Part shown: positions 22,829 to 25,539 of the stretch, piece after piece | How positions within the stretch are numbered: the stretch's first letter is position 1 | Layout of the letters: each line of letters begins with the position of its first letter | Source of the DNA: Balneolaceae bacterium | Lineage (GTDB): Bacteria > Bacteroidota > Rhodothermia > Balneolales > Balneolaceae | Length of the DNA stretch: 64,000 nucleotides | Assembly (NCBI GenBank): GCA_034521445.1 | Contig: JAXHMM010000006.1 | Coordinates: 186,001 to 250,000 of the forward strand | Reading direction: 5' to 3' | The notes under the pieces: generated by a model | Told to the model about the DNA's origin: nothing | The model's input: only the letters and a program-made list of their open reading frames with translations | Database searches by the model: none | Made by a program: the position numbers and the translations under genes

Positions 22829-22912
22829 GGGACGCTGTTTGCACTTCTGAAATTAAAGCTTAGGTTAGCATACGATTCGCATTATTGCAACCGCCTAACC
22901 ACGTACCGGACC

Positions 22913-23872
22913 ATGATCAATCCCTTTTATAATTCCGAGGAGCAGCGGGTCCGTTCCGGATGGCGGCTGCTGCTCCAGATCTTCCTTGTCATTGCGGCCG
23001 GCATGCTGCTCATGCTCCCCTTCTCCCTTGCGGGCGTGCTGGACGGCGCAGACCAATTCGCGGTGATCCCTACGCTGATCACCGCCCTGGCCGCCCTGGC
23101 CGGCACCTGGGGGGCCGGCCGGCTGCTTGACCGTCGCGGATTTGTCGACTTCGGTCACGAGCCGGTCCCGGAGCAGTTCCGGGAACTGGGATTTGGTCTG
23201 CTGGCGGGACTGGCGGCCATGGCTATAATTTTCGCCCTGGAGTACTCCGCAGGCTGGATTACGGTCACCGGCTACGGCTGGGAGCGTCCCTTCACCGGTT
23301 CCTGGGTCGCCGCCTTTCTGGGATTCCTGGTCGTCATGCTGCTTGTGGGCTACTACGAGGAGCTGGTGTTCCGCGGCTACCAGATCTTGAATTTGAGTGA
23401 AGGGCTGCGCGGCACGCTGGGTTCACGTAGTGCCGTGGTCCTGGCCGTCGCCGTAAGTTCGATAGTATTCGGCGTCCTGCACGCCTGGAACGCCAACGCC
23501 ACATCCGTGTCCACCTTCAACATCGTGCTGGCCGGGGCTGTGCTGGCCGTACCCTACGTGGTAACCGGCCGGCTGGGATGGTCGGTGGGCCTGCACATCA
23601 GCTGGAATTTCTGCCAGGCCGGAATCTTTGGATTTCCGGTCAGCGGGACCTCCTTCCGGGGCAGCCTCCTGCAGATCGAGCAGGGGGGGCGCGATCTGAT
23701 CACCGGCGGCGCTTTCGGCCCGGAAGCCGGGCTCCTCGGCATCCTTGGACTGCTGGTCATCCTCTCCTTGTTTTACCTGATCAGGCGGCGCTCAGGATTG
23801 CCGATAACCCTTGCGTCCAAGTTCTCAGGGGAGCCGCTGGAGGCGACGGAGGCAGATGAGCAAGGCTCCTAA
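22913..23872 (+). CDS. CPBP family intramembrane metalloprotease
   Basis: This 319-residue protein has about eight membrane segments and the CPBP motifs YYEELVFRGYQ, FGVLHAWNAN and VGLHISWNF. The start is the ATG giving MINPFYNSEEQRVRSGWRLL, a soluble lead-in common in this subgroup; the frame is open far upstream across the SRAP gene, but that part is antisense. It is divergent from the SRAP gene and followed by the DEAD-box-like gene. Substrate unknown. Confidence 0.9.
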   Translation: MINPFYNSEEQRVRSGWRLLLQIFLVIAAGMLLMLPFSLAGVLDGADQFAVIPTLITALAALAGTWGAGRLLDRRGFVDFGHEPVPEQFRELGFGLLAGLAAMAIIFALEYSAGWITVTGYGWERPFTGSWVAAFLGFLVVMLLVGYYEELVFRGYQILNLSEGLRGTLGSRSAVVLAVAVSSIVFGVLHAWNANATSVSTFNIVLAGAVLAVPYVVTGRLGWSVGLHISWNFCQAGIFGFPVSGTSFRGSLLQIEQGGRDLITGGAFGPEAGLLGILGLLVILSLFYLIRRRSGLPITLASKFSGEPLEATEADEQGS

Positions 23873-23958
23873 GTTTTGTATATTCCCCTGTCTTGAATGA
23901 CGTCTGATCGTGAGGCGTCAGTACGAATCAAATGTTAACCAAATGAAAGGTCATAACG

Positions 23959-25539
23959 TTGAAGTTTGCAGAAATGAACTTAAGCCCGGAAATCATGAGC
24001 GGGCTCAAAGATGTACGTTACGAAGAAGCAACGCCCCTGCAGGAAACCGTCATCCCCAAAATACTTGAGGGCGGAGATCTGCTGATAAAGAACGAAGGCG
24101 ACAAGGGCAAATACGGAAGCGTGGTGATCCCGGCACTTGAGAAACTGGTCCGGGACGGCGACACCGGCCATACCCGTGTTCTCATCCTTACACCCAATCC
24201 CAAAGAAGCCCGTGAAATCGACGAGCTGGTCTGGGCCCTGGGTTACCACAAGCAGATCGAGTGTGCGACGGTGGATCTTGACAAGGAACGCGACAAGCAG
24301 GTCGAGGCTCTCACCTCACAGGTCCCCGTGCTGGTCGGCAATCCCGGTCCGCTGATCGACGTGATGGAGGACGAACTGTTCATCTTTCGGAACGTCGACC
24401 TGGTGGTTGTAGACAACGTCGACGAGATGGTCTCACTTAATCTTACCGATCGCATCCGCGATATCCTTCGGCGGGTAGTCAGCGAGAAACGCCAGTCGGT
24501 GGTTTTCGCCGACGAGCTCTCCCCCAACGTGAAGGAACTGACCAACCTGGTGCTCGACCAACCCCGGATAATCGGTTTCGAGGAAGCCTCCGACAAGACC
24601 CTCATGGAGCCTCCCAGCGTACCGAGCAGTCTCAAGCAGGGCTTTATCAACGTGCCGCCGCGCATGAAGATCTCCACCCTGATGGCCCATATTGACCATA
24701 CGCCGTCGGACACCTGCGTGATCTTCTGCGCCTCCAAGCGGGGCACCGACCGCCTCTACCGCGCCTTTAAAAAGCGTGACCAGAAGGCGACCAGTATCCA
24801 CTCCCAGCTATCCGACGAAAAGCGCGCCCAGCGTCTTGCCAACTTTTCCGACGGAGATGTACAGTACCTGTTGGTGGCCGAAATACCGGCAAGCGAACTG
24901 GGCATCGAGCGCACAACGCAGGTCATTAACTACGACGTGCCCAACGACCCGGACGAATACCGCTTCCGCGCCAGTATGGTGGAGTCAGGCAAGGCCAGCC
25001 GCATCGTCTCGCTGGTCTCCAAGCAAGACCGCAGCGACATCAATGATCTGAAGAACGAGCTGGGCCAGGCGCCTCAGGAAATGCCTCTGCCCGACGAAGT
25101 CCAGAAAAAACTGGAGGAACGCAAGAGCAAGAAAAGCAAACCGGAAAAAAAGGACAAGAAGAGCAGGAAGAGCAACGGGCGCGGCAACAAGAAGGATCGT
25201 CCAAAGCGCGGCTCCGGCAAGAAACAGCGCGGTAAGGAGAAGGAGAAAGAGAAGAAGACAAGATGGAGCTTCCGCGTCCCAGCTACGACAAACTCAGCGG
25301 AGGACGCACCGGAAACAAGAAGGACGGGAAACAGGGCGTCGTCGAATTTTTCAAGAAGCTTCTCTCTTCCTGACCGGCGGTTTTTAGGGCCTCCTCAGGC
25401 CGTCCTCTTTTTTTCCTGGGACATCACCACATCCTTGATGGCTTCAAAGCCTTTCAGAGTCTGTTCAATGTGGGAGTCGGTGTGTGAGGCGGTCGGAATA
25501 AGACGGATCAGCACCGTGCCCTTGGGTACGACAGGATAG
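23959..25539 (+). CDS. DEAD-box-like protein with all ATPase motifs lost; frameshifted C terminus
   Basis: The fold of a DEAD-box RNA helicase is clear, but the active site is gone. A Q-motif remains (YEEATPLQ, residues 21-28). Walker A (AxTGxGKT) is KNEGDKGKYGS; motif Ia is LTPNPKEAREI; DEAD is DNVD (152-155); SAT is ADE (184-186); HRxGRxxR is YRFRASMVESGK. Motif IV (VIFCASKRG) and the VINYDVP strand of domain 2 are well kept. A lysine-rich tail follows, as in RNA-binding paralogues. The start is TTG with AAAGG eight bases upstream. The last 90 or so residues run antisense through the next gene; a shift between 25236 and 25262 would instead end at a TGA at 25371-25373 with the coherent tail LPRPSYDKLSGGRTG to VVEFFKKLLSS. 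Confidence 0.85.
   Translation: MKFAEMNLSPEIMSGLKDVRYEEATPLQETVIPKILEGGDLLIKNEGDKGKYGSVVIPALEKLVRDGDTGHTRVLILTPNPKEAREIDELVWALGYHKQIECATVDLDKERDKQVEALTSQVPVLVGNPGPLIDVMEDELFIFRNVDLVVVDNVDEMVSLNLTDRIRDILRRVVSEKRQSVVFADELSPNVKELTNLVLDQPRIIGFEEASDKTLMEPPSVPSSLKQGFINVPPRMKISTLMAHIDHTPSDTCVIFCASKRGTDRLYRAFKKRDQKATSIHSQLSDEKRAQRLANFSDGDVQYLLVAEIPASELGIERTTQVINYDVPNDPDEYRFRASMVESGKASRIVSLVSKQDRSDINDLKNELGQAPQEMPLPDEVQKKLEERKSKKSKPEKKDKKSRKSNGRGNKKDRPKRGSGKKQRGKEKEKEKKTRWSFRVPATTNSAEDAPETRRTGNRASSNFSRSFSLPDRRFLGPPQAVLFFSWDITTSLMASKPFRVCSMWESVCEAVGIRRISTVPLGTTG
25387..25414 (+). terminator. Probable terminator for the DEAD-box-like gene
   Basis: GGCCT and AGGCC flank CCTC, followed by GTCCTC and seven T residues. 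It overlaps the 3' end of the convergent serine palmitoyltransferase gene. Confidence 0.5.

Follow-up and report, generated by a model that had tools for sequence, protein, structure and literature searches.

The stretch of Balneolaceae DNA analyzed here (the window; 64,000 nucleotides) carries on its forward strand a gene with a TTG start codon that encodes a two-RecA-domain DEAD-box protein, in frame over residues 1 to 434 (Table 1). The protein matches both Pfam models of the fold, DEAD with 63.2 bits (cut-off 26) and Helicase_C with 45.5 bits (cut-off 23.5), and its alignment to CshA and eIF4A covers the two RecA domains, as the preliminary description of this DNA had claimed for DEAD-box helicases in general. 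The structure overlay proposed at that time as a check leads to the same fold: the AF2 model (pLDDT 84.3) matches single DEAD domains as well as eIF4AIII, to which it is closest (2j0u; Z 32.6, rmsd 7.0, 359 aligned residues). Since the profiles used in automatic annotation still match above threshold, the protein is probably labelled a helicase there. The gene follows SecG, an MscS channel, SRAP and a CPBP protease, a neighborhood conserved in many loci, and the CPBP/Rce1-like protease gene is a possible operon partner. A mobile or plasmid origin was rejected, as there was no match to plasmid DNA and the neighborhood is conserved. The conserved TTG start may mark translational control; among the active RhlE-like paralogues of the order, nearly all of those whose start could be placed begin with TTG too.

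Table 1. Features of the locus in window coordinates. Clade A comprises the window copy and its closest relatives; clade B is a sister clade.
Feature	Position	Strand	Evidence
CPBP/Rce1-like membrane protease, upstream co-directional neighbor	22907..23872	+	Pfam PF02517; 33/56 loci, median gap 97 bases
Promoter-like AGTTTTGTATATT	23872..23884	+	Putative, by eye; similar upstream of many clade A/B orthologues
Shine-Dalgarno-like GAAAGG and TTG start codon	23945..23961	+	Purine-rich ribosome-binding-site-like stretch; TTG in 50/52 orthologues with readable start
Pseudo-DEAD-box protein, in-frame part	23959..25262	+	Pfam DEAD and Helicase_C; clade A orthologues 48-61% identical; AF2 pLDDT 84.3
RecA-like domain 1, residues 1-206	23959..24576	+	VIA-align to DEAD domains: Z about 29, rmsd 1.6-2.1, about 205 residues
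Degenerate Walker A, KNEGDKGKYGS, residues 44-54	24088..24120	+	GK[ST] in 0/53 copies
Degenerate motif II, DNVD, residues 152-155	24412..24423	+	Aligned motif comparison across orthologues
Degenerate motif III, ADE replacing SAT, residues 184-186	24508..24516	+	Alignment to CshA/eIF4A and orthologues
RecA-like domain 2, residues 222-382, more conserved domain	24622..25104	+	Orthologue mean identity 61% vs 46% in domain 1
Former motif VI, YRFRASMVESG, residues 334-344	24958..24990	+	Arginine fingers gone; strongly conserved in new form
Basic lysine-rich low-complexity linker	25111..25262	+	64 residues: 27 K/R vs 11 D/E; pLDDT under 50
Stretch where tail frame must be entered, this window only	25236..25262	+	Both frames open; purine run
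Conserved C-terminal tail MELPRPSYDKLSGGRTG...GVVEFFKKLLSS, out of frame with core	25263..25373	+	Tail profile E 1.1e-18; stop 25371-25373

The catalytic motifs were compared across the 53 copies that span the core. None of them has GK[ST] in Walker A or a Thr or Ser after the lysine position, and the glycine framework is lost. The window copy and its closest relatives (clade A) still carry a lysine where Walker A has one (8 K and 1 R among the 53 rows); clade B has a shortened P-loop. SAT occurs in no orthologue row, one subclade having SGT instead; motif V, which reads VAEIPASELGIE in the window protein, has lost its Thr and Arg in all copies, and the second R of motif VI (HRxGRxxR), the arginine finger, is likewise missing from all of them. 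Motif II differs by lineage: clade A has DNVD or DAAD, apart from a literal DEAD in a single copy (L051), clade B has DEAH or DEAQ, and much of clade C has DQAE. It may have eroded once the P-loop, SAT and motif VI had already gone, or structural needs may have kept it longer. The Q motif is intact, with F3 and Q28 invariant among the orthologues, and motif IV of the window protein is near canonical. Moreover, residues of the RNA cleft are gone as well (the motif Ia R, the GG doublet and the motif V T and R). Because of these losses the core appears, judging from its residues, to be without the canonical RNA clamp as well as without ATPase, so RNA, if bound at all, would have to be held by the tail or by some newly formed surface. 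The replaced motifs had been quoted correctly in the preliminary description, motif IV had rightly been called conserved, and the search it proposed for relatives with the same losses recovered those of the P-loop, SAT and motifs V and VI in all 53 copies. Its account of the motifs needs correction on two points, as the loss of motif II is lineage-specific and the Walker A lysine is still aligned in the window copy, and it made no mention of the intact Q motif.

To follow the gene across relatives, we searched 128 genomes from the order and 244 from the class with a profile; complete true orthologues scored about 530-685 bits and active paralogues at most 287 bits, so that the two classes are separated. 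Orthologues were present in 79 of the 92 genomes searched of our family f1, and none was found among the remaining genomes searched of the class. We equate f1 with the Balneolaceae because its named genomes (Fodinibius/Aliifodinibius, Rhodohalobacter, Gracilimonas and Balneola, together with many metagenome-assembled genomes) belong there. In 58 related genomes the copies of the same family are 37-61% identical over the whole core. The copies of genus g5 (L104-L106) are very divergent, at about 302-304 bits, and one g5 genome carries a broken copy with six in-frame stops (G022:C4:70528-71983; L139, L145). The profile scan detected no copy in several small genomes of genera g5 and g21. The gene is therefore dispensable in those small genomes of the two genera where it is absent or broken.

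All members of the family lie on one side of a single branch of the tree (support 100/100), inside a group with the Balneolales RhlE-like helicases (support 99/94); for the closest sister, active Balneolaceae RhlE against all Balneolales RhlE gave an AU p of 0.49. An active RhlE-like copy stands beside the motif-less one in nearly all complete Balneolaceae genomes scanned. The family has a single origin, at the base of the Balneolaceae or close to it, in an RhlE-like active helicase that is still present in the same genomes. In the single directly comparable species pair (G024/G006) its dN/dS is 0.048, against 0.045 for the active RhlE-like paralogue, which answers the check suggested earlier; other pairs within the family gave 0.095-0.143, and the other active-paralogue pairs with an estimate 0.038-0.043 at near-saturated dS. 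With dN/dS of 0.048-0.143, the family is under purifying selection. Having the helicase fold, having lost the catalytic motifs and being kept by selection, it is a family of pseudohelicases, and the pseudoenzyme status of the window protein is well supported. The maintained pseudoenzyme of the preliminary description is what we found: no orthologue restores the motifs, and dN/dS stays at 0.05-0.14. Family-wide decay of the copy was rejected in view of the conserved motif losses, the dN/dS and the occurrence in 79/92 genomes. On a separate note, dS itself is much lower in the pseudohelicase than in the active paralogue for two shared species pairs (0.40 for L040/L039 vs 2.4 for L026/L016; 0.99 for L037/L036 vs saturation for L023/L019), which may reflect higher expression or recombination.

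Domain 2, the former motif VI region included, has become the better conserved of the two and is re-specialised. Mean identity is 61% in domain 2 and 46% in domain 1 among the pseudohelicases, an order reversed in the active paralogues (67% vs 74%). Residues that never vary are concentrated in two places, the strand leading into domain 2 (IxVPxRxKI) and the region that used to hold motifs V and VI (INYDVP...EY..R...G...SLVSK.D..DI). Between the domains, clade B orthologues carry an inserted acidic linker with up to three KLEKASVKVVL-type repeats (e.g., L100, residues about 244-340); the repeat is not found in the window copy.

In nearly all full-length orthologues the C-terminus is made up of a basic linker, the conserved peptide LPRPSYDKLSGG and, at the very end, an amphipathic segment (e.g., GVIGLIKKLFS); of this tail the divergent g5 copies keep the amphipathic end alone. 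The lysine-rich tail announced in the preliminary description is thus present; the peptide and the terminal helix had been missed. With a cut of 0.55 for hydrophobic moment, 0.4 for hydrophobicity and +1 for charge, the C-terminal 11-mers are amphipathic in 48 of 55 copies, compared with 4 of 293 other nearby ORFs. For an Aliifodinibius orthologue, AF2 predicts a terminal helix at residues 445-453 with low confidence. Going by its resemblance to MinD-type membrane-targeting helices, the helix may anchor the protein to the membrane; it could equally well serve to dock onto another protein. A comparable segment, KGxWGLIKSxxP, closes the active RhlE-like copies, which have a basic linker too. A search of five genomes with the tail profile returned no other protein with the pseudohelicase tail at a meaningful score.

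In the full-length orthologues examined the tail is in frame and the gene runs beyond the point that matches 25262. In the window, the tail frame is open over 25236-25373, and the core frame remains open to 25539, where its continuation overlaps a convergent aminotransferase-family gene; position-specific GC shifts from 0.64/0.35/0.74 to 0.42/0.62/0.60 after about 25262. Because the GC pattern changes and the tail lies in another frame, what follows about 25262 in the core frame is not genuine coding sequence, so that the open frame of over 430 codons reported earlier stands for the core and its continuation is no part of the gene. The frame change is either a recent mutation or an assembly error. 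A programmed frameshift onto the tail was considered and rejected: no usual slippery heptamer is seen by eye in 25236-25262, and the full-length orthologues examined need none.

Upstream of the gene, the leaders of clade B (e.g., L098 and L090) share a conserved GATCTTTGAAAATTGAA about 50 bases before the TTG, which resembles the boxA found in the rRNA leaders of these genomes (GTTCTTTGAGAATATTGAG in G033). The 17-mer element occurs once in G033, before the pseudohelicase gene, and its 13-base core is also found inside coding sequence. The 17-base element is not in the leaders of clades A and C, nor in that of the window itself. As a general feature of the family, the boxA leader was rejected: it is confined to clade B and its core also lies within genes. 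For the same reasons, an rRNA-like control of the clade B mRNA through this putative leader is only a lead.

The reading we favor, and hold to be probable, is that this Balneolaceae-specific pseudohelicase, maintained by selection, serves as an adaptor that needs no ATP, is held in place by its tail and handles RNA or ribosomes. We infer the adaptor role from these features as follows. ATP hydrolysis and the canonical RNA clamp would have been given up, judging from the residues, and the two-RecA-domain fold kept. The terminal helix would anchor the protein to the membrane, or to a partner also used by the active RhlE-like helicase; RNA or ribosomes would be contacted by the basic linker, and a protein partner would sit on the conserved face of domain 2. 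Some residual nucleotide binding is conceivable, because the Q motif is kept and the P-loop lysine is aligned in clade A. We can take this further, although with little confidence: the tail might dock at the site of the active RhlE-like helicase, the protein might serve ribosome assembly or RNA decay without ATP, and in the Balneola/Gracilimonas clade its mRNA might be under an rRNA-type boxA leader.

The main rival to the adaptor is a regulator of the active RhlE-like helicase that works through a shared docking site, that is, a dominant-negative or tuning subunit that would pair with the active enzyme, or compete with it for docking via the shared C-terminal helix, and thereby set its loading. 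Both paralogues have the amphipathic C-terminal helix and the basic linker, nearly all complete Balneolaceae genomes scanned have the active copy together with the pseudohelicase, and CshA is a dimer in a solved structure (entry 5ivl). However, the tail sequences differ (GFFKKLFS vs KGxWGLIKSxxP) and LPRPSYDKLSGG is found in the pseudohelicase only, and we regard this rival as unlikely, if the strongest of those we weighed. A little further down we place a nucleotide-binding, non-hydrolysing clamp, in which the Q motif would read adenine and the domains would close on RNA without turnover. The invariance of F3 and Q28, the DEAH of clade B motif II and the aligned lysine of clade A suit such a clamp; the shortened P-loop of clade B, the absence of the Thr/Ser from every copy and the loss of the arginine finger, SAT and motif V do not, and the Q motif may persist for structure alone.

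Decay of the gene in the window's own lineage, with the frame change as a real disabling mutation, is improbable in our view. The out-of-frame tail of the window and the six in-frame stops of the G022 relative are what one could cite for it, but the tail is otherwise intact and the core is open for 434 codons. Moreover, differences from L002 fall at the first, second and third codon positions in the numbers 128, 96 and 288, so that most are at third positions (288/512), and a small indel within a purine run is as easily explained by an error in the draft assembly. A helicase that works with unorthodox motifs can be set aside as very improbable: the fold is intact and motif IV is kept, but the P-loop hydroxyl, SAT, motif V and the arginine finger are jointly lost in all copies, and to our knowledge no SF2 ATPase works without these together.

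Finally, we compared the pseudohelicase with known systems. The Balneolales RhlE-like helicase of the same genome (L046; 33% identity) resembles the window protein in its fold, in starting with TTG and in having both the basic linker and an amphipathic helix at the C-terminus, and differs from it in having all the catalytic motifs and in lacking LPRPSYDKLSGG. By sequence, the window core is matched best by CshA in both NCBIfam and PDB (NF053631; 5ivl), but CshA is an active helicase and the NF053631 score of 197.6 bits falls short of the equivalog cut-off of 646. Pseudokinases and other pseudoenzymes are well known, and pseudohelicases are few. Our search of the literature on Balneolaceae helicases and bacterial DEAD-box pseudoenzymes found nothing relevant; the papers on pseudohelicases that our searches did find concern Utp25 and Deinococcus radiodurans PriA, and none a bacterial DEAD-box pseudohelicase. 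Utp25/Def, a pseudohelicase of the SSU processome, shares with the window family a two-RecA DEAD-box fold, the loss of the catalytic motifs, conservation and a disordered extension, but it is eukaryotic and essential and its disordered part is at the N-terminus (PMC9539457). As the window family branches inside the bacterial RhlE-like helicases, its origin would be independent of Utp25, and membership in the Utp25 lineage is unlikely, in trees taken without Utp25. PriA of D. radiodurans is likewise a bacterial SF2 pseudohelicase whose helicase motifs are lost across the lineage, with binding and partner contact kept; unlike the window family, it acts in the restart of DNA replication and belongs to a different SF2 family (PMC4504706). 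Utp25 (PMC9539457) and D. radiodurans PriA (PMC4504706), the nearest cases on record, show that a helicase fold can persist without helicase activity, and the window family is a bacterial counterpart of both and in all likelihood a member of neither. What distinguishes it from D. radiodurans PriA is that the pseudohelicase has an active paralogue retained alongside it, and this presence of an active and a dead copy side by side in one clade shows which parts of such a protein have a use that does not depend on ATP.
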